Source: Asinibacterium sp. OR53
GTDB lineage: Bacteria; Bacteroidota; Bacteroidia; Chitinophagales; Chitinophagaceae
Direction of reading: 5' to 3'
Assembly: GCF_000515315.1 (NCBI RefSeq)
Contig: NZ_KI911562.1
Location: forward strand, 186,001-250,000
DNA length: 64,000 bases
The notes under the pieces were generated by a model, which made no database searches, was not told the DNA's origin, and worked only from the letters and a program-made list of their open reading frames with translations. A program made the position numbers and the translations under genes. Positions 2,182-15,613 of this stretch are shown one piece after another. The stretch's first letter is position 1. Each line of letters opens with the position of its first letter.

Positions 2182-3438
2182 CTATCTTCTTCTTATCATT
2201 TCGCATACAGTTTCTGTAACTCTATCAGGCATTTCTTGTGCGGGAAGTGGTCCAGAGTTTTGTTCTATCCAATATCGGACTTTATCGATATTCAAATTTT
2301 TCTTTTCGTTCTCCAGTAATGTCATTATTTCAGTGAGATTGTAAATAGGAATAGCTCTGGGATATGTTGCTAAAATTTCTCCGAATGGGCTTCCAGTTAC
2401 TTTGCCATATTGTGCAAGCATAACCGGCATTCCAGTTAAATTTGGCAACAGGGCTATAGTAGAAGGTTCAACAATACATGTTAGACACTTTTGAAGTCTA
2501 TCAATGAAATCATTATCGGTACAAAGATCACATCCTGCTTGGATTAACCTTGAAGCTATTCCAGACTCTAAATGAAGCGGATGTGGTTTCAAAACGAAAT
2601 GTTTCCCGTTCTGTTCAATTATTTCTTTTGTTGAAATTATATGTTGAATAAATTCGTCTGGAGAAGAAAAGGCCCACCCTGTATATATGAGCCCAGTATC
2701 AATATACATTATATCATTATGTGAAACACCTCCATTCCTTATATATGAACCGATTGCAGTTTCAGGCATCTTAAATCTTATCAAATCCGGGTTACCCACG
2801 ACAATGATTTCCTCCTTAGTATAGCCATATTTATTAATGGCATGTTCTACATCTGCTTTAATAAATACGCAACATTTATCTGTTTTAGCGTCAGGAGCTG
2901 ATCTAAAAGAAGGAAAACCTAATGCTCCGCTAAAATTGTCCCGAATAAACCTGATCCAATCATTTAATGGAGCTTTGGTAACAATTAAAGATTTAACATA
3001 TGTTGGATACACTTTTTTTAGGGCTCTCCCAAAACTTGATAAAACATAAGCAATATGTGTCGTCAGTTTTAACTTATAGCGAGAGCCTTTTCCAATAGCT
3101 TGAACACGTCCTAATCCATTAGACAAATGAAGTGTTGGAATGTGCCTTTTTTTGCAATATCTATTGAATGCCCTATGCGCGAATGCATCTGTAGAAAGAA
3201 AAATTACTGCCGCCGGTTTTTCGAGGTCAAGTATTTCCAAAAATGTTTTTCCTTTGTAAAACCTGATGTCTTTTACAGATAATTTGTCAATAACCTCTTC
3301 AGTAGGTCTTCCTGGCTCAGTACCCCAAGATCCTAAATGAATAAGATCAAAATCTATTCCTTTTTCTTTAAAAGAATCTACTAACCTATTATAATTTCGC
3401 CAACCTTGTGTCCAACTATCAAATCCTATGACCTTCAA
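2182..3438 (-). CDS. GT-B-like transferase with KPHP motif, specificity unknown
   Basis: 418 residues. The start appears to be TTG at 3438: an in-frame stop lies just upstream and the first internal ATG is beyond residue 240. No confident family match, but three features resemble the CDP-glycerol transferase / polysialyltransferase / capsule (KpsC-like) GT-B group: VGNPDLIRF (214-222), FVLKPHPLH (281-289), and EPSTIALLPNLTGMPVML (324-341), the usual donor-binding end of the fold. In this locus it most likely adds a glycosyl or glycerol-phosphate-like group. AT-rich like its neighbours. Function remains inference. Confidence 0.6.
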   Translation of the reverse strand: MKVIGFDSWTQGWRNYNRLVDSFKEKGIDFDLIHLGSWGTEPGRPTEEVIDKLSVKDIRFYKGKTFLEILDLEKPAAVIFLSTDAFAHRAFNRYCKKRHIPTLHLSNGLGRVQAIGKGSRYKLKLTTHIAYVLSSFGRALKKVYPTYVKSLIVTKAPLNDWIRFIRDNFSGALGFPSFRSAPDAKTDKCCVFIKADVEHAINKYGYTKEEIIVVGNPDLIRFKMPETAIGSYIRNGGVSHNDIMYIDTGLIYTGWAFSSPDEFIQHIISTKEIIEQNGKHFVLKPHPLHLESGIASRLIQAGCDLCTDNDFIDRLQKCLTCIVEPSTIALLPNLTGMPVMLAQYGKVTGSPFGEILATYPRAIPIYNLTEIMTLLENEKKNLNIDKVRYWIEQNSGPLPAQEMPDRVTETVCEMIRRR

Positions 3439-3508: not shown

Positions 3509-4246
3509 TTATTCATCAAAACCTGAGTGCAAGTGTTTATTCCCTATAATAATTTCCCCACTGTCATACAGATCTATTAGTTCTGATTGGGAAAATGTAA
3601 AGAGTTTCTCTTTTTTAGAAAAAAAATGACAGATATCTTCAATAAGTTTGATATCCTCATTATAATCTACAGAAACATAGATATCGGGCCTTATTAAGGA
3701 GTCTTCGTTTGGAGAAATTTTATATTGACTGAATTTATTGTTTCCCTTAATATAAGGAACGGTGTGCTCCTTTTGCACATCATCCAAAGAATCTTTAATC
3801 GCTTCTTCTAAAACTTTTATAGAAATAAGTTCAGCAGCAGTTCCATATATCCAACCGGTTCTATGACTTGCATAAATAAAATCTGCAGGTTTTGTAGCAT
3901 GAGCAGATATTAAAGCAGATATACAACCGGGATCAATCAAAGGATCATCCCCTCCAACACGTACCATATTTTGAATATTGTAAGATTGGCACGTGTCATA
4001 AAATCGCCTGATTAGATTAGTTTCACTACCACGAAAACACTTAATTTCACTTTTTTCTGCCAGCGCTTGCGTAATATCATCTTCTTTTTTATCGCTAGTC
4101 GCAACGAAAATATTGTTTATCCCATTACTTTTTAATCTCTCTAATTGAAGCCGTAGCATTTCAAACCCTTCAATTAAATGTGAAATTTTCCCAGGCCTCC
4201 TACTAGACCCCATTCGTGCTTGTATTACTACACCGTATTTAATCAT
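3509..4246 (-). CDS. SpsF-like cytidylyltransferase
   Basis: 245 residues from ATG 4246; the start overlaps the end of the upstream oxidoreductase gene by 4 bases (ATGA), so the two are translationally coupled. VVIQARMGSSRRPGKI (6-21) is the nucleotide-binding loop of the SpsF/NeuA/KdsB cytidylyltransferase family, and RVGGDDPLIDP (96-106) is its second conserved block. The family activates acidic keto-sugars as CMP derivatives. Together with the NeuB-like synthase at 9701-10537 it suggests a CMP-linked keto-sugar in the polymer. The exact substrate is not predictable. Confidence 0.8.
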   Translation of the reverse strand: MIKYGVVIQARMGSSRRPGKISHLIEGFEMLRLQLERLKSNGINNIFVATSDKKEDDITQALAEKSEIKCFRGSETNLIRRFYDTCQSYNIQNMVRVGGDDPLIDPGCISALISAHATKPADFIYASHRTGWIYGTAAELISIKVLEEAIKDSLDDVQKEHTVPYIKGNNKFSQYKISPNEDSLIRPDIYVSVDYNEDIKLIEDICHFFSKKEKLFTFSQSELIDLYDSGEIIIGNKHLHSGFDE

Positions 4247-5274
4247 AATTTTATTTCTTGTCTTTCCTCAAAACTCTTTTCTGCCGCATACAAAATATTA
4301 AGAACCTCATGATCATCTTCAATCGAGTATGTAGGCTTAACGACTTCAAAGCTTATTTCGATAAAATTTGTAATTTCCAAAACATACATTTCTTCCGTAC
4401 TTGTTGTTTTAGATAATCGTGCTTTTGTAAAATATTCCCAAGAATTGGAGTCAGAAGAATAAACAGATAGTTGGCCTTTATTAAAGTCTATCTCCATGTT
4501 ACCATTTTGAAAAATCACCTTAGTTTCCCTATATGGTACTTTAGAAACTACATCAATAACAACGTTCAAGCAGGTTCCAGTGTCTGTTTCGCAAATCAGC
4601 GAATAAATATCATCAATTTCAACACCTAAGGTTTGAGTGTTTTTCAGAAATGCTTTTACATTTTTAACTTTCCCAAACATCCATGTCAAATACACTAAAT
4701 CAAAAGGTACAATTTCTCTTGCTCCTCCTGTCTCTTTTTTTGAAACGTAAAAATCGTTTATCCTTTCATATGGATGCCAATTAGGCAAATACTGTCCAAA
4801 ATGATGATTTGCCAATAAAACTCTCCCTAACTTACCGGAATCAATTATTTGTTTCGCCTTATTGATTATCGGGTCAAATCTCATGGTGCATGATGGAACG
4901 AGCGCAACCTGGTTTTTAATTTTTACTTCATTCAGCAGATCTTGTAACTCTAATAATCCGTCGCTTAAAACACTTGCCTCAATAAAAACATGAAGTCCTC
5001 TTTTCACTCCTTCCATTGCATAAAAAACATGTTCATCAGGTGGAGTAGAAACAATAAGATGTGAAAAGTCTTCCTTATTAACATCAGCAAATTCTTTTAA
5101 AATGTTGATCCCGTATTTTGACACCGCTTCGTTCTTCCTGTCCTCTCTTATATCATATCCAGTGATTTTCGTTACTCCTATGTGTTGTAAATTCCTAATT
5201 CTCCTTTTACCCATTGAACCAAGTCCAATAATTAAAACACTTATATTTTCGAGATTGTTATTTGTATGTCCCAT
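4243..5274 (-). CDS. Gfo/Idh/MocA family oxidoreductase
   Basis: 343 residues, ATG at 5274. The N-terminal Rossmann motif VLIIGLGSMGKRR (13-25) followed by a mixed alpha/beta C-terminal half is typical of the NAD(P)-dependent Gfo/Idh/MocA family, which oxidises or reduces sugar hydroxyls, often on nucleotide sugars. It is coupled to the SpsF-like gene by a 4-base overlap and follows the methyltransferase gene by 18 bases. Members of this family accompany keto-sugar synthases in flagellin and capsule modification clusters. One of two such paralogues in the cluster; the other is at 7668-8561. Confidence 0.82.
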   Translation of the reverse strand: MGHTNNNLENISVLIIGLGSMGKRRIRNLQHIGVTKITGYDIREDRKNEAVSKYGINILKEFADVNKEDFSHLIVSTPPDEHVFYAMEGVKRGLHVFIEASVLSDGLLELQDLLNEVKIKNQVALVPSCTMRFDPIINKAKQIIDSGKLGRVLLANHHFGQYLPNWHPYERINDFYVSKKETGGAREIVPFDLVYLTWMFGKVKNVKAFLKNTQTLGVEIDDIYSLICETDTGTCLNVVIDVVSKVPYRETKVIFQNGNMEIDFNKGQLSVYSSDSNSWEYFTKARLSKTTSTEEMYVLEITNFIEISFEVVKPTYSIEDDHEVLNILYAAEKSFEERQEIKL

Positions 5275-5292
5275 ATGATTTATATAAACTGA

Positions 5293-6129
5293 TTAAAATT
5301 GAAATACTGCCGTCATCATATTATCAAAAAAAGGAGGGCATTTCACCTTAGTCGCAGGATTAATCAGTTTTTGTAATACTAAATTTAAATCACTTTCGAA
5401 ATTTGCATAAGGTGTTTCGAGGTACAGGTTTTTTTCCGCGAAAAACTTTAATCCAAATTTACGAAAGTAGTTAACAAAATCTTTTACAGAGAAATGATAT
5501 AAGTGTTCTTTAGGTAAGTGCATATTCCAATCACTTTTAAATAGCTCACATAAAACTGAATCTCTATTTTGTGTTGCACTAATAAAAATAATACCCCCTT
5601 CGTTCAAAAGTGACATTGCCTTTTTCAGGTAGGCTCTCGGATTATCGACATGTTCAATGCAACCTCTAAAAACAATTATATCAAACTTGTGGGGAATTGT
5701 AATTTCCGGGAATTCGCCTATGTATACTTTAAAATTTTTCATTGCTTCTTCAGCAGCCTCTTTTCCGAATTCAACCCCTTCGCATTCAAATCCTCTAGCA
5801 TGGAAATGGTTTAGAAATTGTCCACCACTACATCCTACATCCAATACTTTCCCAGACATTTTATATTGAGAAAGATAAGTGAGTTCTAGCTCATACATTA
5901 TTTCTCTTTGCATGTTTAAAACTTGGTTTTCTTGATGCATCGAAGAATAATAGTTCTTGTAGAATAATTGCAACGACTCTTTGTCGTAAGGGTTCCGTAC
6001 AAAAATCAAACTGCAATCATTACATTTAACAGTTTCAAAGCCATCTGAATCAATTTCGCACCATTTCTCAAAATTTTTTGAATCACACATTGGGCATGCA
6101 AGCAAATTTTTATGTGTCATATTTATCAT
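5293..6129 (-). CDS. SAM-dependent methyltransferase with N-terminal zinc ribbon
   Basis: 278 residues. Four cysteines at 12, 15, 36 and 39 form a CxxC...CxxC zinc ribbon ahead of a class I methyltransferase fold whose SAM loop is VLDVGCSGGQFL (95-106). This layout is common in methyltransferases of O-antigen and deoxysugar loci (C-, N- or O-methylation of nucleotide sugars or glycan ends). ATG 6129 is chosen; a second ATG at 6120 (MTHKN) is equally possible. It lies between the class III aminotransferase and the oxidoreductase in the same operon-like series. Confidence 0.82.
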   Translation of the reverse strand: MINMTHKNLLACPMCDSKNFEKWCEIDSDGFETVKCNDCSLIFVRNPYDKESLQLFYKNYYSSMHQENQVLNMQREIMYELELTYLSQYKMSGKVLDVGCSGGQFLNHFHARGFECEGVEFGKEAAEEAMKNFKVYIGEFPEITIPHKFDIIVFRGCIEHVDNPRAYLKKAMSLLNEGGIIFISATQNRDSVLCELFKSDWNMHLPKEHLYHFSVKDFVNYFRKFGLKFFAEKNLYLETPYANFESDLNLVLQKLINPATKVKCPPFFDNMMTAVFQF

Positions 6130-6214
6130 TTTAATAAAATCTTTTAAGGACTACAATACAGAAATTAATTTTTTACGGCAACCACTAGGTAACCTTTTTA
6201 TTCTCTCACTCTAA

Positions 6215-7654
6215 TTATTTACAACAAGAAAGTTTTTCGACATCAGTATAAATTCGCCCACACCGACCTTGTTTGCATTTGTTAAATGGCCGGAAGACTG
6301 GCTTCACAGCTTCTCCTACAAAGGAATCTTCTATGTTTTCCATTTCAACCGATTTTTTAATTTTTCTTAATCCTTCTCGCAATGCTTGCAATGTAATATC
6401 CAATTCTAAGTTGGTATGAGCATAGGTAATGGATATCCAAGGAATTAAAATACCTTGATCAATTACTTCTTCATGAAATGAAGTATGAAGTTCCGGCCAA
6501 TAAGTTCCATTCTCTTTTGTGCAAAGTATATGTGGGTTACAATCAAAGCCAATTAATTTTATATACTTTCCAACACCTTCTTCTTTTATTAATTGTTCGA
6601 ATCCTTTCCGTAGTTGACCTCCTAAATTCCAGATATGTTCATTTACATTGACGCGTTCACATTCTTTCAATGTTGCTAAAGCTGCCGCCAAGCCAACTGT
6701 TTCGGATCCGTGCGTTTGTGAAAGAAGAAACACCCTCTCCCTGTCATGCATGATCCCTCCTAAATTTAATATATCTCTTTTGCCAGCTAACATAGAAAAT
6801 GAAAAACCATTGCTTATACATTTTCCATAAGTTGCCAAATCCGGATAAACTCCCCATAAATGATGAGCACCTCTAATATCAAATCTGATTCCGCTAATCA
6901 TTTCATCAAAAATCAGGATAGTTCCATTTTTTGTACATATATCTCGCAATTCAGTTAGAAAGTTCTTCTTTCCTTTTGCACAAATTCCTTTTTCGCATTG
7001 TTCTTTACAGGTTTCATCCTTATCGTAATTACAAGGATGATCATTCTTAACCGGTTCTAAAATTAAACAAGCTATTTTATTGTGGTATTGATCAAACATT
7101 TTTTTTACACCCTCAATATCATTATAATCAAAACCAATTGTATACTGTCTTTCAGATTCTATAACGCCAGCATTCATATTTGTTGATCCAATAAACCAGT
7201 CATGAATACTAAAAAAAGGATGTTGCTTGCAAACAGCAACATGTGTTCTATTAGTATATGCTCTTGACAATTTAACTGCAGCAGTGGTCACGTCTGAACC
7301 ATTTTTTCCAAATTTCACCATTTCAGCTACTGGAAAAAAATCAACCGCAAACTGCGCCACTTCATATTCCAATATACCTGGTCGAGTATAATTTGTACTA
7401 TTATCAATTGCTTTTTTTACAGCATCATTGACAACTTTATTATTATGCCCTAAAATAAAGACTCGATTCCCCATAGCCCAATCTATGTATTGATTGCCAT
7501 CAACATCCCAGCAATATGCCCCATCAGCATGCGTAATAATTTGTGGAGACATTTGAGGAAACTGGTCATTTCCTTTTGAGTATGTGTGGCTTCCTCCTGG
7601 AACCAGTTCGTGAAAATGTTTAGAGATTTGCATCCCTTTTGTGTATTTTCTCAT
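6215..7654 (-). CDS. Class III aminotransferase (glutamate-1-semialdehyde aminomutase-like) with Cys-rich insert
   Basis: 479 residues, longer than HemL-type enzymes (about 430). PLP-site features are visible: FGKNGSDVTTAA (115-126), IFDEMISGIR (248-257, with the PLP-nitrogen aspartate at 250) and Lys278 in TYGKCISNG as the Schiff-base lysine. An insert near 205-230 holds Cys208, 216, 220 and 225, and the C-terminal tail adds Cys460, 465, 477 and 478; such clusters usually bind zinc or iron-sulfur. It is not the haem-pathway enzyme by context: it sits in a sugar cluster 13 bases downstream of a Gfo/Idh gene and probably aminates or isomerises a sugar or small acid. Confidence 0.78.
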   Translation of the reverse strand: MRKYTKGMQISKHFHELVPGGSHTYSKGNDQFPQMSPQIITHADGAYCWDVDGNQYIDWAMGNRVFILGHNNKVVNDAVKKAIDNSTNYTRPGILEYEVAQFAVDFFPVAEMVKFGKNGSDVTTAAVKLSRAYTNRTHVAVCKQHPFFSIHDWFIGSTNMNAGVIESERQYTIGFDYNDIEGVKKMFDQYHNKIACLILEPVKNDHPCNYDKDETCKEQCEKGICAKGKKNFLTELRDICTKNGTILIFDEMISGIRFDIRGAHHLWGVYPDLATYGKCISNGFSFSMLAGKRDILNLGGIMHDRERVFLLSQTHGSETVGLAAALATLKECERVNVNEHIWNLGGQLRKGFEQLIKEEGVGKYIKLIGFDCNPHILCTKENGTYWPELHTSFHEEVIDQGILIPWISITYAHTNLELDITLQALREGLRKIKKSVEMENIEDSFVGEAVKPVFRPFNKCKQGRCGRIYTDVEKLSCCK

Positions 7655-7667
7655 AAAAAATATTTAA

Positions 7668-8561
7668 CTAAACAAGTATATTTCCTTTTTGAATTATATC
7701 TACTACTTTCAACGTCTCTTTTATCGGTATATTTTCTTCGGCTTTTTTTATAACATTTATAAATTTTTTTAGCGACGTTTTAAATGCTTCAAAACTATTC
7801 TCAAAAACCATTTCATGGAAACCATTATTCCCACTTAACAAGATAGAGATAGGGCTCTTGGACTCAGTAATTGCTTTGATAACACAAGTAATATTTTTAG
7901 AAAAAACAATCGTTACAATCTTCCCTTCATTTGTGTCAATAACATTGTATTTAAGTACATCAACATCAAATCCAATAATTTGCAAAATAGGTTCTATCAC
8001 ATGAATGGCATATTTATTCCAACTTTTAGGTACTTCTGCATCAATAAACTTTATTACCCCTACTTTTTTTGATATTTGCTCATCAATCATAAACTCTTTT
8101 GCATACCTTAAGGAAGTACAGGAAAAAATTTGATGATCATATCGCTTCAAGTGCAAAATGCGCTCTGCTGTAGGCACATCATATGCGATTGGCTTATCAA
8201 TATATATTGGCAGGCCAGCTTCAATGAAAGGTTTACTCATTTCATAATGATTTTCCGCATCATCACGCGCCAGAAGCACTCCATCAACATGACCAATCAT
8301 ATCCTCATATTTATCACTAATGTGAGTAATTTCAGATGCATTTGCAATATGCTCTGAGAGCAATCTATCGGCGGTCCAAATATGAGTTACAGTAGCTTCA
8401 TTAATAGTATCATCAGGGAAATGCTGTTTTTTTAAATAATTATAGATCGCTGGAAAAGGGCAATCTTTCATATATTGATCTTTATATCCATTAAAAATGG
8501 CAGACCATGAATATGGATGCCCATTTCCTTCACTCATTCCCAAGATACCTAGCTTAATCAT
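7668..8561 (-). CDS. Gfo/Idh/MocA family oxidoreductase, short form
   Basis: 297 residues, ATG at 8561. The N-terminal half (IKLGILGMSEGNGHPYSW) is an atypical Rossmann start, but the later EAGLPIYIDKPIAYDVPTAE stretch (about 140-160) carries the EKP/DKP-type lysine motif of Gfo/Idh/MocA dehydrogenases. It is shorter than the usual 330-380 residues. It sits 13 bases before the class III aminotransferase and 51 bases after the acetyltransferase gene, so it probably acts in the same sugar route. Substrate unknown. Confidence 0.72.
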   Translation of the reverse strand: MIKLGILGMSEGNGHPYSWSAIFNGYKDQYMKDCPFPAIYNYLKKQHFPDDTINEATVTHIWTADRLLSEHIANASEITHISDKYEDMIGHVDGVLLARDDAENHYEMSKPFIEAGLPIYIDKPIAYDVPTAERILHLKRYDHQIFSCTSLRYAKEFMIDEQISKKVGVIKFIDAEVPKSWNKYAIHVIEPILQIIGFDVDVLKYNVIDTNEGKIVTIVFSKNITCVIKAITESKSPISILLSGNNGFHEMVFENSFEAFKTSLKKFINVIKKAEENIPIKETLKVVDIIQKGNILV

Positions 8562-8612
8562 TCAACAATTACAATTATAAACTACTCCTAAATATATAAA
8601 TTCCGCTGATAC

Positions 8613-9689
8613 TTATATCCATTTATGATACCATAGTTGTGTAGATAGCGTTTTAAAACCTACACTTTGATACAGCCTTTGGGCAACATAATTCCTACCT
8701 TGTGTAACAACATTAACGTTTTTAATTCCTTTTTTTATCAATTCATTAAAAACATTTAATATCAATAATTTCCCCAGCCCTTTTCCAGCATATCGTTGAT
8801 CCATTCCAAAAAGGCCAATATTTGCAGAGGCTGCTTTTGAATATTTGACCGTACAAAAACCTATAGGAAGGCCGTTTTCGTACAAACAAAAACAACAATC
8901 ATCAAAAGTTCCTAAAATTGCTTTCTCTATCCAACTTGCATAAAACTCATTTATTTTATTAAGCTCGAAATTTCCATCATAGAAATATCTGCTATCTTTA
9001 TACAAAAAATTAGTCAACTCTTTTAAATATTCAATATTCTCTGGAGAGGCGACGCCTAGTTGATAAGGTAAATCATCAATTTGATATGGTTCTTTCAAAC
9101 TTATGTTGAAAGTCAATCTAATATCAGTAAAATGAAAATTGTTTCTTTCAGCTACTTTCACACTTCTGTCGTCATGGCAATTACATAAGTACTGCAATAA
9201 CCTAATATTATTCTCTTTTATGAAATACTCAATATGATGTTGAATATTGTCAGTAAGATACCGAGAACCGATTAAAGCTATTGGAAAGCCAAAAAAATCA
9301 GAATCCCACTTTAGAATACATACAAGATTTGAAACCTCTTCAAAATCAAAATCAGGGTTAGATAAGGAATAAGAATGTCCAGAAAAATATTTAACAGAGT
9401 CTGTCCCTTTAAAATCAATTACAATATCGGCTTTATGATGATATTCTTGAGCATCCCCAAAAACGAGGCTAACTATCCTCATCCCTCGCAGTATATATAT
9501 CCATTGTTCTGAAAGGTTTCCGGTTATTACCAGAGAAATATGATGTTTTTTTAAATACTCAATGGTCAATTCATGGGAAAATATTTGATGAAGTAAATTT
9601 TTCTTTTTCCCTTGTAATTTTTGATATGCTATGTTAAGTTCATTTTGATATTCATCGTTTACATTGCTAAATACAAAAAGAATATTCAT
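8613..9689 (-). CDS. Two-domain acetyltransferase, WecD-like C-terminal part
   Basis: 358 residues. The C-terminal two thirds resembles TDP-fucosamine acetyltransferase WecD: LKWDSDFFGFPIALIG (126-141), then a GNAT domain with the acetyl-CoA loop QRYAGKGLGKLL (298-309) and a terminal NVVTQGRNYVAQRLYQSVGF block. The first 100 or so residues are a separate Rossmann-like segment (LVITGNLSEQWIYILRG, ADIVIDF) faintly reminiscent of the PseG UDP-sugar hydrolase. With the WecE-type aminotransferase nearby, N-acetylation of a 4-amino-4,6-dideoxyhexose is the likeliest role. The N-terminal assignment is weak. Confidence 0.72.
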   Translation of the reverse strand: MNILFVFSNVNDEYQNELNIAYQKLQGKKKNLLHQIFSHELTIEYLKKHHISLVITGNLSEQWIYILRGMRIVSLVFGDAQEYHHKADIVIDFKGTDSVKYFSGHSYSLSNPDFDFEEVSNLVCILKWDSDFFGFPIALIGSRYLTDNIQHHIEYFIKENNIRLLQYLCNCHDDRSVKVAERNNFHFTDIRLTFNISLKEPYQIDDLPYQLGVASPENIEYLKELTNFLYKDSRYFYDGNFELNKINEFYASWIEKAILGTFDDCCFCLYENGLPIGFCTVKYSKAASANIGLFGMDQRYAGKGLGKLLILNVFNELIKKGIKNVNVVTQGRNYVAQRLYQSVGFKTLSTQLWYHKWI

Positions 9690-9700
9690 TTTTTGTTTGC

Positions 9701-10537
9701 TTATGATTTAAACCTTCTATACTGTTCTGTACCTTTTTGCGCATTTGTTAATCCTGGAATCCCATTCCCTAAAATTTTTTCTAACGTTCTTGTTTCCAAA
9801 ACGAGGTTATGCATTTGATTTTCAGAAATTGACACTGGTGCATCGACACATTCCATATCGTCGGTTATTTTATAATGCTTTTCCAATATCTTAGCTCCAG
9901 CTGCTACTGCAAATAAAGGCACTTTAATATCATTAGTGTGGTCAGATTGTCCAATCACGCAAGATTCAAAATGATCTTTCAGAGAAAATATAGCGGCTAA
10001 ATTGGCATCTTTCTCATTAGTTGGATACGCAGATATACAATGCAGTAATGCAACTTTGCTTGTATGCTCATTAAGTATTTTTAATGCACTTCTGATTTCA
10101 TCTATGTTTGACATCCCAACAGATAAAATAACAGGTTTCCCTGTTTTCGCTATTTTTTTAAGCAAAAAATTATTCACAACATCAAAAGATGCTATTTTAT
10201 ATAATTCAACACCGATAGATTCTAAGTAATCGACGCTTTCAGCATCAAATGGGGTCGAAAAAAATATAAGGCCCTTGTTCTCTGAATATGTTTTTAACTC
10301 TTGAAAGGCATCAAAAGGAAGTTCACATTTTTTTAAAATGTCGAATATTGGGGAACTTTTCTCAACTCTATTTTCAGTTATATAGGTCTGAAATTTTACT
10401 GCATCAACTCCCGCCTTATATGCAGAATCAATCATTTCTTTTGCTAAGTCAAGACTACCGTTATGATTAATTCCAATTTCTGCTATTATAAAAGTCTTAT
10501 TTTGACAGTTAATACCAAAATCTTTAATTGTTTTCAT
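9701..10537 (-). CDS. NeuB-family sialic/nonulosonic acid synthase lacking the SAF domain
   Basis: 278 residues. The whole NeuB TIM barrel is present: FIIAEIGINHNGSLDLAKEM (16-35), AVKFQTY, FFSTPFD, KPVILSVGMS, HCISAYPT, IGQSDHT and LEKHY. NeuB, LegI and PseI enzymes (about 340 residues) continue after GNG...GLT with a SAF (antifreeze-like) domain that covers the sugar end of the neighbouring active site; this protein stops at that junction and the next gene begins 11 bases later. It should condense phosphoenolpyruvate with an aldose or aldehyde, but the missing cap implies a different partner. The sequence gives no sign of a frameshift. Confidence 0.85.
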   Translation of the reverse strand: MKTIKDFGINCQNKTFIIAEIGINHNGSLDLAKEMIDSAYKAGVDAVKFQTYITENRVEKSSPIFDILKKCELPFDAFQELKTYSENKGLIFFSTPFDAESVDYLESIGVELYKIASFDVVNNFLLKKIAKTGKPVILSVGMSNIDEIRSALKILNEHTSKVALLHCISAYPTNEKDANLAAIFSLKDHFESCVIGQSDHTNDIKVPLFAVAAGAKILEKHYKITDDMECVDAPVSISENQMHNLVLETRTLEKILGNGIPGLTNAQKGTEQYRRFKS

Positions 10538-10571
10538 GTTATTTTATTTAAAATTTATTAAAGAAATTTGC

Positions 10572-11345
10572 TTACCACGAACTCATTCCGCCGTCAATAA
10601 TTAAATTTTGACCAGTTGTATAAGATGATGCATCGCTAGACAAATATAAAATCCCCCCAATCATCTCTTCAACATTAGCCATCCGTTTCATTGGGCAACG
10701 AAATGCGTAATTGTTTAAAAAACCTGTTCCCTGAGGTGCCGCGGGATTGAAAATCCCTCCAGGAGAAAGCGTATTAACACGAATATTTCGATCAGCTAAG
10801 TGTACTGCAAAATATTTTGACATTTGGATAACCCCTGCTTTTGTAGCTCCATATATTTCGGAGTTTTTTCGATCACAATCAGTATAAATTCGAAAATCAG
10901 GGCTGATAACTCCATAAAAAGACCCAATATTCACAATTACAGCCGCCTTTTGAAAAATCTTATCAAACTTATTTACGAATGATTGGATACACCAAAAGGT
11001 TCCTTTTAAATTAACGTTCATTACCCAATCGATTTTTGCCTCTGTTCGTTCCTCAAAGGGCTCAAAAGTGCTTACTCCAGCGTTGTTAATAAGTATATCA
11101 ATCTTTCCATACTTTTCATAAATATCTGAAAATATTTGATCAACCTGTTCCTGGTTGCTTATATCTGCTTCATAGTACTTGACAGTGGGTAAATTATTTT
11201 GAGTGGTTTTAACATCTACTCCAAATACCATACACCCTACATTGACAAAAGCTAAACATATTTCTTTCCCAAGTTGCCCGCAAGCTCCTGTTACTAAAAC
11301 AGATTTACCAGAAAAATTAAAAAGTTTATTCAAATAGTTATCCAT
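10572..11345 (-). CDS. Short-chain dehydrogenase/reductase (sugar pathway)
   Basis: 257 residues of classical SDR design: cofactor loop VTGACGQLGKEI (18-29), NNAG (87-90), catalytic Ser142 and Tyr165-x3-Lys169 (YGATK), and a C-terminal GQNLIIDGG. Family members in nonulosonate and flagellin clusters (PtmA type) oxidise or reduce a sugar hydroxyl. Its stop lies 34 bases before the NeuB-like start, and its own start is 1 base from the end of the TIM-barrel isomerase gene, so it belongs to the same transcription unit. Substrate not predictable. Confidence 0.85.
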   Translation of the reverse strand: MDNYLNKLFNFSGKSVLVTGACGQLGKEICLAFVNVGCMVFGVDVKTTQNNLPTVKYYEADISNQEQVDQIFSDIYEKYGKIDILINNAGVSTFEPFEERTEAKIDWVMNVNLKGTFWCIQSFVNKFDKIFQKAAVIVNIGSFYGVISPDFRIYTDCDRKNSEIYGATKAGVIQMSKYFAVHLADRNIRVNTLSPGGIFNPAAPQGTGFLNNYAFRCPMKRMANVEEMIGGILYLSSDASSYTTGQNLIIDGGMSSW

Positions 11346-11346
11346 A

Positions 11347-12117
11347 TTATAAAATTGCTTTTTTTAACTCACTAATTGCACTTACAAGTTCTTCAGTATT
11401 CTTATAATATTCAATAGTTAAGAATTCAATTCGAGGATATTTCTTTACTAGAAAATCAGTTTCATTCCATTCTTCATGATCGGGTAAATTATGTGCATCA
11501 AATGCCATTTTCTCATTTTTCCCCCATTTACAAATATGTAATTGAATGCATTCATTTAGCGGCAATTCATCTCGATATTTCTCATACGGTATTTTCATAT
11601 TATGCGCAGATACATGAGCATGAGCAATATCAAATAAAAAATTAATGTTATTTTCTTTAACAATAGAAGTAATAAAATATGGCTCAGCAATATAATCATA
11701 TGCAATAGAGGGGTAATAATTATTATTCTCTATAGCTATTGAAACATGCTCTCCCATTATTTCTCTTATTTTCTGAAAATTTGTTTTGGCATTCTCTTTT
11801 AGCTCATCGATAGAATACTTGTAACTTCCTGATACAAATATTCCGTTCTCAATGATAGGATCATGAAAACAAGAAGCCAGATGAAATGAAATAAGCTTAA
11901 GATTTGGCTTGTTTTTTTTAAGCTCTCCCACATATTCTAGCTCACTTTCTGTCCATCGATGTATTGGCTGCAAATCACAATGAAATAAGGCTTGTAGCGT
12001 AACATCCGTTTTTGGGGAATGATCTCTACATTCTAAAAAATCAGAATTTTCTGTTATTATAGAAGCAAATAATTCATTTTTAAATAAATGGGATATTGGA
12101 GTCGCAATACTAGGCAT
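11347..12117 (-). CDS. Xylose-isomerase-like TIM-barrel protein
   Basis: 256 residues. The pattern of strands, with metal-ligand-type segments ISFHLASCF, IAIENNNYY (Glu), FLFDIAHAHVSAH (Asp-x-x-His) and FLTIEYYK (Glu), fits the sugar phosphate isomerase/epimerase (AP endonuclease 2-like) superfamily, which binds a divalent metal and isomerises or epimerises sugars. It overlaps the upstream aminotransferase gene by 8 bases. In this cluster it may make the keto or epimeric precursor used by the NeuB-like enzyme. Exact reaction unknown. Confidence 0.72.
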   Translation of the reverse strand: MPSIATPISHLFKNELFASIITENSDFLECRDHSPKTDVTLQALFHCDLQPIHRWTESELEYVGELKKNKPNLKLISFHLASCFHDPIIENGIFVSGSYKYSIDELKENAKTNFQKIREIMGEHVSIAIENNNYYPSIAYDYIAEPYFITSIVKENNINFLFDIAHAHVSAHNMKIPYEKYRDELPLNECIQLHICKWGKNEKMAFDAHNLPDHEEWNETDFLVKKYPRIEFLTIEYYKNTEELVSAISELKKAIL

Positions 12118-13240
12118 TATAGAAATTAAGTATATTTTCGCTTATATAATCTACTTCATCATAAGTAAGATCCGTAAACATTGGAAGACGAACTAAGCAG
12201 TCAGCCCATTTGTCAGCCTGTGATAATTCCCTTCCATCATGTTTATCCTTGTAATAGTTAGATTTATGTAATGACAAATAATGAAAAGTAGATTTAATTC
12301 CTTTACTTGATAAAGTCTTCATCAACTTTGTTCGTTCCTCAATATCTTCACATGTCAAGTAAAACATATGAGCATTATTAGTAGCATACTCAGGAATAAT
12401 AGGTAATAAGTTTTCATTGCTTGCCCCGAGGTTGCTTAAATTGTTATAATATCTATTCCAGAGTGACCGCCTTTTCTGTTGAATATCTTCTTTTTTGTTT
12501 AACTGTGCCATTAGAAATGCCGCAATCAATTCCGACGCAAGAAAAGAGGACCCAATATCTACCCACCCATATTTATCAATTTCGCCTCTAAAAAACTGAG
12601 ATCTGTTGGTTCCTTTCTCACGTATAATCTCAGCCCTCATTATATACTCGGGTCTATTAATTGCAAGCAATCCCCCTTCTCCTGAGGTTAAATTCTTTGT
12701 TTCATGAAATGAGAAAGTGGACAAGGCTCCTATAGTACCAAGGGGCTGATTCTTGTAATAAGAATCTATGGCCTGCGCTGCGTCTTCGATAACGATAAGA
12801 TTATATTTTTCTGAAAGAGAATTGATTTTATCCATGTCGCACGACGCTCCTGCATAATGCATTGCCACAATTACTCTTGTTTTTTCAGTAATTAGTTCTT
12901 CAATTTTATTTACATCTATATTCGGTGTTATCCTTTCGCTATCTGCAAAAACTATTTTTGCCCCCCGAAGTGCAAATGCATTTGCTGTTGAAACAAATGT
13001 GTATGAAGGCATAATAATTTCGGATTGAGAATCAATATTCGCTAATAAAGCACACATTTCCAGGGCATCTGTACAAGATGTAGTTAACAAAGTTTTTTTA
13101 AATCCGTATTTATCCTCCATATATTTTTGGACACTTGCAGTATATTCGCCATCGCCGGCTAACTTCTTTAGTTCGATTACTCTTGCGATATTCTCAATTT
13201 CCTGTCCCGTAATATAGGGTTTATTAAAAGGGATTTCCAT
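12110..13240 (-). CDS. wecE: WecE/RffA-type sugar aminotransferase
   Basis: 376 residues, the length of enterobacterial WecE (dTDP-4-amino-4,6-dideoxygalactose transaminase), and recognisably similar along its whole length: MEIPFNKPYITGQE start, MPSYTFVSTANAFALRGAKI (77-96), IEDAAQA (151-157), FSFHETKN with PLP Lys182, and the IREKGTNRSQFFRGEIDKY block. WecE converts TDP-4-keto-6-deoxyglucose to TDP-Fuc4N using glutamate. The RmlA/RmlB enzymes that make its substrate are not in this window. The WecD-like acetyltransferase at 8613-9689 would perform the next step. Membership is clear; the exact product is inferred. Confidence 0.88.
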   Translation of the reverse strand: MEIPFNKPYITGQEIENIARVIELKKLAGDGEYTASVQKYMEDKYGFKKTLLTTSCTDALEMCALLANIDSQSEIIMPSYTFVSTANAFALRGAKIVFADSERITPNIDVNKIEELITEKTRVIVAMHYAGASCDMDKINSLSEKYNLIVIEDAAQAIDSYYKNQPLGTIGALSTFSFHETKNLTSGEGGLLAINRPEYIMRAEIIREKGTNRSQFFRGEIDKYGWVDIGSSFLASELIAAFLMAQLNKKEDIQQKRRSLWNRYYNNLSNLGASNENLLPIIPEYATNNAHMFYLTCEDIEERTKLMKTLSSKGIKSTFHYLSLHKSNYYKDKHDGRELSQADKWADCLVRLPMFTDLTYDEVDYISENILNFYNA

Positions 13241-13298: not shown

Positions 13299-14285
13299 CT
13301 ATTTTGATAGTTGAGTGTGAGTATTATCCTTTATATACCACTCAAAAACTTTTTCTAGCCCCTCATAAAAATTTGTTTCAGGTTTATACCCAAGTAATTC
13401 GATTATTTTATTAATATCAGCTTTTGAATGTCGTACATCTCCATCCCTTTCTGCCTGATAAGTCAGTTGCACGTTCAGTTTTGATATATTTTTTAAACAT
13501 TTAATAACCTGATTTAAAGAAATTTGCTCTCCGCACGCAACATTATATACCTGATTCATTGCTAATGGATTTTTTGAAAACAGTGCCAAGTCATTTGCTA
13601 GTATAACATTACTCACATATGTAAAATCTCTAGTAGTCTCCCCATCACCATTTATTACAACTGGCTTGCTTTCAAGAAATGCCTTACAAAATGTCGGAAT
13701 AACAGCTGCATATGCCCCATTGGGGTCTTGACGGGGACCAAATACATTGAAGTATCTTAGTCCTATATAATTGAGTCCATAATTTCTATTAAAGGTATCG
13801 GCAAAAACTTCAGTAACATATTTAGTCACTGCATAGGGACTTAATGGCTTTCCTATTTGGCTTTCCACTTTAGGCAATTCCTTACTATCTCCATATGTAG
13901 ATGAAGAACACGCTAATATAATTCTATCAACTTTATTTATATGACACGCATGCATTAGATTAACAGTTCCTAAAATATTAACCTCCGTCGTTTTCATAGG
14001 ATTTTTTATCGAACGAGGAACGGAACCAAGAGCTGCCTGATGTGTTACTTTATCGATATCTTTTGTAATAGAAAGACACGTTTCATAATTACAAATATCC
14101 CCTTCTATAAATTCAAATTTTGGGTTTGAAAAAAAACTCTTTATGTTGTTAAAGTATCCAGTTGAAAAATTATCAATCACTCGAATCAATTCGATTCGTT
14201 CATCATTTATATATTTTTCAACTAAATTGGAGCCGATAAATCCAGCCCCGCCGGTAATTAATAATTTAACTTTATCTGTTATCAT
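13299..14285 (-). CDS. wbpP: UDP-N-acetylglucosamine C4-epimerase (WbpP/TviC type)
   Basis: 328-residue extended [16 protein letters not shown] (9-21) binds NAD; SSSTYG (127-132) and Tyr151-x3-Lys155 in PLSPYAVTK form the active site. The blocks [31 protein letters not shown] and [11 protein letters not shown] match the WbpP/TviC subgroup, which interconverts UDP-GlcNAc and UDP-GalNAc or their uronic acids. Its ATG overlaps the dehydrogenase stop by 4 bases; in Vi antigen and Pseudomonas O6 loci the same pair makes UDP-GalNAcA. AT-rich. Confidence 0.88.
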
Positions 14286-15613
14286 AACCCTCCATCTACT
14301 ATATCAAGTGATAAAATACCTTTAACATCATAAACAACCGATTCCGTCTTTAAAAGATCTCGTATGTTTATTGATATAAAAGAGCTATGGCTAACTGCTA
14401 AAATTATTGCATCAAACTTTTTGTTATTAGGAATATCAATTTTAGTCATTATATCATATTCTCTCTTAACATCTTCTGGTTTTGCCCAAGGGTCAACTAT
14501 TGTCAAGCTGACATTGTATGTTTTAAGCTCATTGATGATATCGATGACCCTTGTATTTCTAACGTCTGGACAATCTTCTTTAAAAGTAAACCCAAGTATC
14601 AGAATCTCTGCATCCTTTACTTTTATATTTTTTTTTATCATTAATTTAATAGTCTCATTAGCTACATATTTCCCCATCTCATCGTTTAGCCTCCTTCCAG
14701 CTAAAATTATTTCAGGATGATAACCTAATTCTTGTGCTTTTTGCGCTAAATAATAAGGATCCACTCCGATGCAATGTCCGCCAACCAACCCTGGTTTGAA
14801 TTTTAGAAAGTTCCATTTTGTACCTGCTGCTTCTAAAACAGACTTAGTATCAATCTTTAATAAATTAAATATTTTAGAAAGTTCATTAACAAAAGCAATA
14901 TTAATATCTCTTTGCGCATTCTCAATTACCTTAGCGGCCTCTGCGACTTTGATACTTTTGGCTTTATATGTTCCTGCAGTAATTATTGACTTGTATAACT
15001 GATCAACTATTTCTGCAGTTTCTGGTGTAGAACCAGAAGTCACTTTTAAAATTTTGGTTACTGTATGTTGTTTGTCGCCTGGATTAATTCGTTCGGGACT
15101 ATAGCCAACAAAAATATCTTTATTTAATTTTAACCCACTGTTTTCTTCGAGCACAGGAACGCATTCTTCTTCAGTTACTCCAGGATAAACAGTAGATTCG
15201 TAAATTACAATATCTCCACTTTTCAAACATTTGCCTACTGTTTCGCTCGCCCTATATAGAGGAGTCAAATCAGGGTTGTTCCTTTTATCTATCGGGGTTG
15301 GCACAGTAATAATATAAATGTTACAAGATTTAATACTTTCAATCTCTGAAGAAAGTTCTAATCCTTTATTATTGACATTTTTCTGTTTTTCTTGTTGCTC
15401 AAATCCCAATAAAACATTTTGAAGGACATCATTTTCAACTTCTAAAGTATCATCAATACCAAGTTTCAAAGTATTGATTCTTTTTCTATTAATATCAAAC
15501 CCAACGACTAAATATTTTTTTGCAAATTCAACTGCTAAAGGAAGTCCCACATATCCAAGGCCGATTACTGCTATTTTCTTTTCTGTCAAATTTATCTGCT
15601 CATTATTTCGCAT
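14282..15613 (-). CDS. wbpO: UDP-N-acetylhexosamine 6-dehydrogenase (WbpO/TviB type)
   Basis: 443 residues. [17 protein letters not shown] (14-30) is the NAD-binding start; the catalytic cysteine is Cys281 in [23 protein letters not shown] (170-180) and [15 protein letters not shown] near the C-terminus are subgroup signatures of TviB/WbpO. The enzyme oxidises C6 of a UDP-HexNAc twice to the uronic acid. It is coupled to the epimerase by a 4-base overlap. A second, more GC-rich dehydrogenase of the same subgroup lies at 26198-27463, so this copy probably came with the polysaccharide block. Confidence 0.88.

Follow-up and report, generated by a model that had tools for sequence, protein, structure and literature searches.

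The window, which is the whole analysed stretch of 64,000 nucleotides, contains between positions 3509 and 13240 a block of 10 open reading frames of 245-479 aa, all on the minus strand in the ORF listing, separated by no more than 85 bases and overlapping briefly at two junctions. The GC content of the block is 33.1%, compared to 46.3% for positions 17001-64000. Both the tightly packed, co-directional layout and the AT-richness agree with the preliminary description of this DNA, as do the roles assigned by Pfam and NCBIfam (DegT/WecE, SDR, NeuB, GNAT, two Gfo/Idh, class III aminotransferase, methyltransferase and CTP_transf_3). The features of the block and its surroundings are as follows.

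13299..15613, minus strand: UDP-HexNAc 4-epimerase (TviC/WbpP-like) and 6-dehydrogenase (TviB-like), both below those equivalog cut-offs
12110..13240, minus strand: WecE-type DegT aminotransferase, core gene 1 (NF008687, TIGR02379)
11347..12117, minus strand: DUF692/MNIO-like metal TIM barrel, core gene 2 (PF05114, AlphaFold model, structural matches, metal positions)
10572..11345, minus strand: SDR oxidoreductase, core gene 3 (Pfam)
9701..10537, minus strand: NeuB-family synthase without SAF domain, core gene 4 (PF03102)
8613..9689, minus strand: N-acyltransferase, WecD-like GNAT plus an N-terminal part (Pfam/NCBIfam, L334 homologue)
7668..8561, minus strand: Gfo/Idh/MocA oxidoreductase, gfo1 (PF01408)
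6215..7654, minus strand: class III aminotransferase of the PRK06209 family, Cys-rich (NF004856)
5293..6129, minus strand: SAM methyltransferase (PF13489, 82 bits)
4243..5274, minus strand: second Gfo/Idh/MocA oxidoreductase (Pfam and NCBIfam)
3509..4246, minus strand: SpsF-type cytidylyltransferase (PF02348, 71.8 bits)
2182..3438, minus strand: 418-aa protein between the cassette and a GT2 glycosyltransferase (no Pfam match)

The genes at 13299..15613 are probably adjoining sugar genes that serve another nucleotide sugar, and the 418-aa protein, for which no homology was found, could, as a guess, be the cognate transferase.

The NeuB-family protein, at 278 aa, stops where the extra C-terminal part of its homologues of 330-350 aa begins, and PF03102 is the only domain that it matches (246.6 bits, cut-off 22.1); the C-terminal SAF domain, which in NeuB contributes a substrate-binding arginine, is absent, as had been noticed previously. 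The protein scores below the cut-offs of the NeuB model (TIGR03569, 282.4 vs 399.65) and the PseI model (TIGR03586, 241.4 vs 340.25), and it keeps 11 of 12 aligned PEP and metal positions, the exception being S169 in place of Asn; the 11 positions, taken here as equivalent to the residues of N. meningitidis NeuB that contact PEP and metal, are E20, K48, T95, K114, S117, S139, S198, H200, E219, H221 and D232 of the window protein. A SAF-less NeuB is not unique to this locus: short NeuBs (<305 aa) are common in the set of phage contigs that was fetched. The best match in the PDB, 6ncs (titled N-acetylneuraminic acid synthetase, and presumably a Leptospira protein), is likewise short and is 44% identical over the aligned part; it joins the cassette NeuB clade in the tree (97/93), on a branch so long (1.68) that its position there is unsure.

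The conserved unit to which this NeuB belongs consists of wecE, the DUF692/MNIO-like TIM barrel, the SDR and the short NeuB in fixed order. Besides the window, the unit was found, whole or in part, in five IMG/VR contigs, two of which are 98.5% identical, and in three other genomes; the phage loci are L158, L159, L160, L161 (on the same contig as L157) and L162, and the bacterial loci are L334, L249 and L250. A full-length WecE-type gene lies directly before MNIO-SDR-NeuB in the window, L334, L249, L159, L160, L161 and L162. In L158 the MNIO is preceded by a 205-aa DegT piece and the rest of the set is complete; L250 has a 257-aa wecE-like frame, the MNIO and the SDR on a contig that ends before NeuB.

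The same five viral contigs lead the scans seeded with NeuB, with the MNIO and with the SDR. The viral NeuB scan gave 79 loci for the best 80 of 488 relatives, five of them with at least 51% identity and the others with at most 40%, and an MNIO match was absent, in frames of at least 100 aa, from the other 74 of these loci among the best 80. The MNIO-seeded viral scans returned one, three and five loci, and the top five of the best 80 of 103 relatives in the SDR-seeded scan stand at 46-52%, with the others at most 38%; the cassette SDRs score at least 375 bits, against 213 for the next SDR. The cassette NeuBs form one clade in the tree (support 99/98), and the pairwise identity matrices of the four proteins correlate with one another (r 0.83-0.98). 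On the opposing side, the cassette was not found among the best 80 loci of the genome-collection scan, nor was a NeuB match above 43% identity found in 99 other relatives. Two of the cassettes, on the L159 and the L157/L161 contigs, are flanked by late-sigma-factor matches (26-27 bits), and L157 adds an exonuclease match. The best reading of this distribution is that the four-gene unit is a mobile pathway common to phages and bacteria.

A cytidylyltransferase follows the cassette in all eight loci with enough sequence, which upholds its earlier designation as the partner of NeuB, but the enzyme is not always SpsF. PF02348 is matched in the window, L158, L249 and L334; the L334 enzyme passes the cut-off for PseF (pseudaminic acid cytidylyltransferase, 297 vs 205.7 bits), the window enzyme lies below every NCBIfam cut-off among its matches, and the cassettes of L159-L162 close with homologues 31-33% identical to the window SpsF. 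The C-terminal two thirds of the acyltransferase are WecD-like, below the WecD cut-off (109 vs 219), and its N-terminal part (about 1-118) has no family match; L334 carries a full-length homologue (50%) in the equivalent position, and L162 and L249 have a hexapeptide-repeat protein in this slot. A 50% homologue of gfo1 lies within the L249 cassette, and BLAST gave no match to gfo1 in the five phage loci. The class III aminotransferase is above the PRK06209 cut-off (NF004856, 518.3 vs 486), with Lys278 invariant among the sequences compared; the aminotransferases of the three phage cassette loci scanned reach only 220-230 bits on this model, the L249 cassette has a DegT enzyme in its place, BLAST found no aminotransferase resembling that of the window after NeuB in L334, and the remaining bacterial locus is truncated by its contig end. 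Because the window-like aminotransferase was not seen in L334 and gfo1 was not seen in the phage loci, neither is counted as core. The cassette of the window was alone in showing the Cys-rich class III aminotransferase, the methyltransferase and the second Gfo/Idh; relatives of the second Gfo/Idh adjoin class III aminotransferases in the long-NeuB clusters L060, L097 and L109. The earlier expectation of a set that co-occurs elsewhere is borne out for the short NeuB with a fixed gene set, but the diagnostic set is wecE-MNIO-SDR-NeuB, and the combination of NeuB, SpsF and the Cys-rich aminotransferase is not supported.

On balance, this cassette of phages and bacteria is probably a route to a CMP-activated keto-acid sugar of nonulosonate-like type, destined for a surface polysaccharide, with the following proposed steps. 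WecE would aminate C4 of a nucleotide-bound 4-keto-6-deoxyhexose, the substrate of WecE proper being dTDP-linked. The metal TIM barrel and the SDR would convert the product to a free aldose, and the TIM barrel, which stands in the position of NeuC/LegG/PseG, would most likely carry out nucleotide release and/or isomerisation or epimerisation. The short NeuB would add phosphoenolpyruvate to the aldose, the exchangeable acyltransferase would acylate the amine, the optional second aminotransferase (accompanied by gfo1 in both the window and L249) would add another amine, and the cytidylyltransferase would make the CMP sugar. On the best reading of the sequence the sugar would be built on a WecE-type 4-amino-4,6-dideoxyhexose, and the four-gene unit probably departs from an unexpected starting material to produce a sugar resembling sialic acid. 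It is suggested more tentatively that this is a nonulosonic acid route which departs from dTDP-4-keto-6-deoxyglucose and not from UDP-/GDP-GlcNAc, installs the nitrogen on C7 first, employs an MNIO-fold metalloenzyme on a sugar and travels as a portable module carried by phages.

The TIM barrel of core gene 2 had been called an isomerase; the barrel stands, but the family is MNIO/DUF692 (PF05114, 52.8 bits vs cut-off 25), an iron-enzyme family known from peptide maturation. The AlphaFold model (pLDDT 85.9) has TglHI, MbnB and 3bww among the Foldseek top rows, and since sugar epimerases score close behind the peptide oxidases (Z 18.9 vs 20.7 for the best), the fold alone leaves the reaction unsettled. 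Profile comparison gives 96.6% for DUF692 and only 0.8% for TIM-barrel-like domains fused to other NeuBs; the NeuBs of L122, L127 and L216 are likewise coupled to such a domain, but as a further C-terminal domain that the cassette MNIO does not match. In PMC3438082 the extra domain of a Leptospira NeuB is read as endonuclease-like, with a phosphatase inferred, and the case perhaps has the same architecture as these three. Nine metal positions, assigned by the predicted PbsC pattern and alignment, are present in the window (H46, H79, E130, D163, H166, H194, D207, H209 and E236); H46 falls one column away in the alignment, the five DUF692s aligned carry Asn at position 166, and His194 is replaced by Gln in L159, L161 and L162. 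The four cassette members scanned all stay below every NCBIfam MNIO equivalog cut-off. The DUF692 profile match, the best structural matches, the nine-ligand pattern and the COX1-type oxidases of the host are consistent with an O2- and iron-dependent oxidase that oxidises or rearranges a sugar carbon, as MNIOs do on peptides, instead of a hydrolase or isomerase. This is somewhat unlikely, given that no partner-protein candidate was found among the ten ORFs of the block (ORFs of at least 80 aa), that no gap within it exceeds 85 bases, that three phage members lack the ligand residue at one of the nine positions, and that a similar ligand set also serves endonuclease IV, which is hydrolytic. If the proposed pathway is true, the protein would be the first MNIO outside peptide chemistry, whether it replaces the NDP-sugar hydrolase step or oxidises the sugar.

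The WecE-type protein passes both curated models (NF008687, 540.6 vs 375; TIGR02379, 479.0 vs 434.85), which are also passed in L161 and L162 and hence in all three loci scanned, and full-length homologues of 46-56% identity occur in L334, L249 and L159-L162. Because a WecE 49% identical to that of the window stands outside the cassette at L089, the enzyme may serve a separate sugar. The block would then make two, with WecE and the WecD-like GNAT leading to dTDP-Fuc4NAc, and the MNIO, SDR, NeuB, aminotransferase and cytidylyltransferase drawing on a host precursor to give a CMP keto-sugar unrelated to the first; capsule loci do mix pathways, and the mere DegT piece in the otherwise complete set of L158 fits such a division. 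The division is nevertheless improbable, because full-length wecE lies immediately 5' of the MNIO in seven of nine loci (L159 and L160 counted apart) and its distances track those of the MNIO, SDR and NeuB (r 0.90-0.98 over six sequences).

The known partner set had been reported missing, and no PseB/LegB 4,6-dehydratase was found in 3509-13240 by Pfam or NCBIfam, but a WecB-type 2-epimerase and a membrane dehydratase (179.7 vs PseB cut-off 407.75) lie about 19 and 25 kb downstream of the block in the same locus. An ordinary legionaminic or pseudaminic acid, with the missing steps supplied by these two genes or from elsewhere in the genome, would also accord with PseF in L334 and with the acetamidino set WbuX, HisH and HisF2 nearby, of a kind known for these sugars. 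It is nonetheless highly unlikely: the epimerase, the only PF02350 match in the genome, is of the non-hydrolysing WecB type (322.4 vs 210.15; NeuC model 79.2 vs 235.9), a search of the genome for PseG gave no match at E 0.001, the window NeuB falls below the NeuB and PseI cut-offs, and LegB/PseB is the best match for none of the six extended SDRs scanned from phage cassette loci, two of which are strongly RmlB-like. In support of a dTDP-linked precursor, RmlB-like dTDP-glucose dehydratases stand 1.8 kb before wecE in L162 (345.7 bits vs RmlB cut-off 365.1) and, cut by the contig end, in L158 (281.1 bits); both are below the RmlB cut-off and score far lower on the LegB and PseB models, and the host RmlB elsewhere in the genome reaches 473.5 bits. 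No RmlB-like dehydratase was identified in L157/L161, where the extended SDR is a heptose epimerase, or in L159. The short NeuB with its fixed gene set and the lack of a PseG match favour the earlier proposal that a CMP-activated keto-acid sugar arises here by a different precursor chemistry. What the sequences show directly is the content and order of the genes, their co-occurrence, the families they belong to, the loss of SAF and the metal-ligand pattern; each reaction, the dTDP origin and the product are inferred from these. That NeuB has ceased to condense PEP in a block undergoing decay, as the loss of the SAF arginine might suggest, is scarcely credible, given reading frames open throughout, PEP and metal positions kept, phage and bacterial members that remain 51-66% identical to the window, and the solved structure of a short relative (6ncs).

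Nonulosonic acids shape bacterial encounters with hosts and with phages, and gene sets are used to predict which type is made. A different route would mean a sugar class that escapes the present rules, and sugar chemistry by an MNIO-family member would broaden a family known for its work on peptides. The presence of one cassette both in phage contigs and in bacterial genomes suggests that ready-assembled pathways for surface sugars are moved by phages. Among known systems, the MNIO/DUF692 enzymes (MbnB, TglH, ChrH and the bufferin maturases) share PF05114, the fold and the metal-ligand pattern with the window TIM barrel, but MbnB, TglH and ChrH, as described in PMC12141560, act on RiPP peptides with a partner protein, neither of which was seen at the block. 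The Pse and Leg pathways (PseB-C-H-G-I-F and LegB-C-H-G-I-F) likewise combine a 4-aminotransferase, an N-acyltransferase, a NeuB-family synthase and a CMP-transferase in one operon, and PseF itself is present in the L334 cassette; they differ in using PseC/LegC where the window has a WecE-type enzyme, and in having PseB/LegB and PseG/LegG, none of which was found in the block, whereas the window has the DUF692 TIM barrel and the SDR between aminotransferase and synthase, and a NeuB without SAF. The WecE-WecD branch of enterobacterial common antigen (dTDP-Fuc4NAc) shares with the window a WecE above the cut-off and a WecD-like GNAT C-terminus, but the window GNAT is below the WecD cut-off, carries an extra N-terminal part and is linked to NeuB and a CMP-transferase.

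The ten sugar genes that the preliminary description had assigned to one same-strand block do form such a block, which is transcribed from 13240 to 3509 with a largest gap of 85 bases in the order wecE, MNIO-like, SDR, neuB, GNAT, gfo1, class III aminotransferase, methyltransferase, gfo2 and spsF, and which has a GC content of 33.1%, compared with 46.3% in 17001-64000. The gene set is confirmed, and the interpretation placed on it is improved: its first four genes constitute a cassette that is rare, mobile and conserved, that probably serves a nonulosonate-like sugar, and whose TIM barrel adds a new member to the DUF692/MNIO fold. The features referred to below are as follows.

3509-13240, minus strand: block of ten sugar genes
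4243-5274, minus strand: gfo2, a Gfo/Idh/MocA oxidoreductase
6215-7654, minus strand: class III aminotransferase
7668-8561, minus strand: gfo1, a Gfo/Idh/MocA oxidoreductase
8613-9689, minus strand: GNAT
11347-12117, minus strand: MNIO-like metal TIM barrel

The last of these, described earlier as a TIM-barrel isomerase, instead matches PF05114, the MNIO/DUF692 family. Profile comparison fits the protein to DUF692 (96.6%) and not to the TIM-barrel-like domains that some other NeuBs carry as fusions (0.8%), and a Foldseek search with its AlphaFold model (six-row alignment; pLDDT 85.9, pTM 0.87) places TglHI, MbnB and 3bww on top, with D-tagatose 3-epimerase relatives next. Alignment of the model by VIA-align gives Z 20.7 and rmsd 3.1 with 231 aligned against chain A of the MbnABC complex 7dz9, and Z 18.9 and rmsd 3.1 with 228 aligned against a D-tagatose 3-epimerase-like protein. 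For the MNIO PbsC, PMC12257519 predicts nine metal positions, and all of them have counterparts in the window protein, which shares with PbsC a His at the D+3 position, in contrast to the Asn of the five ordinary DUF692s aligned. Alignment and reading show the nine putative positions to be complete in the window, in the bacterial loci L334, L249 and L250 and in the viral locus L158, while His194 is replaced by Gln in the viral loci L159, L161 and L162. The window's genome has a second, ordinary DUF692 gene (L009, G000:C1:1646247-1646588). In the main text of PMC12452194, on the MNIO landscape, no word starts with "sugar" or "glyco".

In overlapping samples of class-, order- and phylum-level genomes, the MNIO profile matched 3 of 395 (the window's, G499 and G635), 2 of 396 (the window's and G883) and 1 of 395 (the window's), and a single-sequence MNIO search of 296 phylum genomes gave matches in seven, above 33 bits in the window's own only. 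The locus of G499 (L249) carries wecE-MNIO-SDR-NeuB, a hexapeptide-repeat protein, a counterpart of gfo1 (50%), a DegT aminotransferase under the LegC and PseC cut-offs, and a cytidylyltransferase; that of G635 (L250) has a 257-aa wecE-like frame, MNIO and SDR before the contig ends; and that of G883 (L334) has wecE-MNIO-SDR-NeuB, a two-part GNAT as in the window (50%), a 268-aa protein, an aldo/keto reductase and a PseF-type enzyme, with no aminotransferase resembling the window's second one at the cassette. A NeuB scan of genome contigs, seeded with two peptide patterns derived from an alignment of two sequences, found the cassette MNIO in none of the best 80 of 194 relatives, which were mostly long NeuBs; it missed genomes found later and is therefore not a census. 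One 3,646-base contig (L142 and L076) is titled Verrucomicrobia in one collection and assigned to the window genome's order in the other.

The MNIO scan of viral contigs returned one locus, L157, where the gene order follows that of the window: wecE, MNIO, SDR, NeuB, a 129-aa protein, a class III aminotransferase, SpsF. From the viral NeuB scan 79 loci were retained of 488 relatives, five standing apart at 51-63% identity from the others, none of which exceeds 40%; in all five MNIO, SDR and NeuB are adjacent, with a class III aminotransferase and a cytidylyltransferase after them, wecE is full-length in four (L158 has a 205-aa DegT piece), and an MNIO match occurs in 0 of the other 74. Rescans with MNIO and SDR alignments ranked the same five contigs at the top, and because L159 and L160 are 98.5% identical the five amount to four different phage copies. 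The cassettes of L159 and of L157/L161 (one contig) are flanked by weak matches to T4-type late sigma factors, and the L157 cassette also by an exonuclease match; for L158 and L162 the neighbouring genes scanned gave matches to glycosyltransferase families only, so that the viral origin of both depends on IMG/VR. At L157:1607-4277 there is an ADP-heptose-like set, in which an extended SDR, a heptose epimerase at 315.5 bits (cut-off 274.6), precedes HldE-like halves and a HAD-type protein recognized by reading. Scanning viral contigs with gfo1 as a single protein found nothing. Phage records held no MNIO match and no cassette (three NeuBs at 32-36%), and plasmid records no cassette, their eight MNIO-protein hits each spanning at most half its length (seven annotated DUF692). 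Nor, in a search mostly outside subscription papers, was the cassette found among the papers listed on DUF692/MNIO with sugars, sialic acid or polysaccharide, on WecE with NeuB and SpsF, on nonulosonic acid with glutamate-1-semialdehyde and cytidylyltransferase, or on nonulosonic acids, NeuB and phages.

Judged from the sequences, the four genes are an old, coherent unit. Cassette proteins are separated from the best other protein fetched by then in HMM score, at 276 bits or more versus 42.6 for MNIO, 410 versus 263 for NeuB and 375 versus 213 for SDR. In a tree built without L334, which was found later, the cassette NeuBs form a single clade (99/98), with the window and MAG sequences interspersed among viral ones, and the identity matrices of the four proteins (six to eight sequences) correlate at 0.83-0.98, with a contribution from the close pair L159/L161.

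The second aminotransferase and the protein after NeuB differ in family from locus to locus, perhaps a sign that a common scaffold is decorated with different side chains. In L161 the 129-aa protein after NeuB is GNAT-like by reading, yet has no NCBIfam match at 1e-6. Residues 1-118 of the window GNAT are conserved with L334, match no family and are faintly PseG-like in their letters; a PseG remnant, an idea from reading those letters, is not claimed, there being no NCBIfam match, a single chance match in the PDB (E 1.3) and a useless single-sequence AlphaFold model (pLDDT 38.7). The window class III aminotransferase has a Cys-rich insertion at about residues 209-226 and a Cys-rich tail, and shorter Cys-rich insertions occur in those of L062 and L063. 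The block itself is part of a surface-polysaccharide locus that continues downstream (L239 and L240) with a WecB-type epimerase, a WbuX/HisH/HisF2 acetamidino set (L239:6652-9192, by NCBIfam), an asparagine-synthase-like protein, and flippase- and polymerase-like proteins assigned by reading ORFs. A set of the same type, with WbuX-, HisH- and HisF-like (HisF2) genes assigned by reading, shares the cassette's locus at L249:17569-20000; none was noticed in L334. A cognate glycosyltransferase common to the flanks was looked for beside the cassettes and none was demonstrated.

The NeuB was correctly described as SAF-less, being a PF03102 protein of 278 aa with no SAF domain; it scores under the NeuB and PseI equivalog cut-offs, and a NeuB search of 100 relatives matched 31, none above 43% identity except the window's own. 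The trio of class III aminotransferase, SpsF and short NeuB has been dropped as a diagnostic, since such sets also accompany other NeuB clades: L066-L070, from another short-NeuB clade, have SpsF, class III aminotransferase, SDR and NeuB in five of five, and the long NeuBs of L060, L062-L064, L097 and L109 are accompanied by a class III aminotransferase and Gfo/Idh or SpsF. L066-L070 form a second uncharacterised SAF-less set: L067-L070 also carry a split transketolase, L066, L067 and L069 encode a fatty-acid hydroxylase relative, and the set includes relatives of a small HAD-type protein. At L145:8630-11077 and L199:8651-11029, reading suggests a fusion in which NeuB follows an FAD-dependent, mutase-like N-terminal domain.

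The explanation preferred on balance is that the mobile cassette makes a CMP-activated nonulosonate-like sugar; a more detailed version, rated somewhat less likely than not, starts from dTDP-4-keto-6-deoxyglucose, introduces the C7 nitrogen first, has the MNIO-fold metalloenzyme act on a sugar and treats the module as phage-borne. WecE-type enzymes aminate dTDP-4-keto-6-deoxyglucose at C4, and the cassette WecE, by family knowledge of its substrate, would do the same; RmlB is found in the host genome. NeuB requires a free aldose, so the nucleotide has to leave; the window's genome has no PseG match, its sole PF02350 match is WecB-type, and wecE and neuB are separated solely by the genes for the metal TIM barrel and the SDR. 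The TIM barrel may be an oxidase, since its closest relatives are oxidases and the genome, with its COX1 oxidases, is that of an oxygen user. Sugar isomerases and endonuclease IV, the latter with trinuclear phosphodiesterase chemistry, share its fold superfamily and both appear in its Foldseek list; these relatives, the required loss of the nucleotide, the missing PseG and the gene content between wecE and neuB are the grounds on which nucleotide release and/or isomerisation is provisionally preferred to oxidation. PEP and the 4-amino-4,6-dideoxyhexose would then yield a 7-amino-3,7,9-trideoxynonulosonate. WecE could instead serve another sugar, as a WecE 49% identical to the window's occurs outside the cassette in L089 and L158 lacks a full wecE. 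The preferred explanation and its dTDP start are strengthened by RmlB-like proteins near the cassettes of L162 (345.7 bits) and L158 (281.1 bits, cut by the contig end; cut-off 365.1 for both), which weaken the improbable alternative of an ordinary Leg/Pse acid (Leg pathway as in PMC4481668).

Among known systems, the best solved relative of the window NeuB, 6ncs, is likewise short, and the NeuBs with a SAF-like part and, by reading, an extra C-terminal TIM-barrel-like domain (L122:3030-4925, L127:9644-11893, L216:13293-15191) perhaps resemble the Leptospira fusion of PMC3438082. The PseF-type enzyme of L334 is the best single clue to the nonulosonate type of the putative activated product. 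The gene set of L066-L070 is reminiscent of amino-DAHP logic. In L249 the hexapeptide protein, gfo1 and DegT aminotransferase are similar in logic to WbpD-WbpB-WbpE and may add a second acylated amine.
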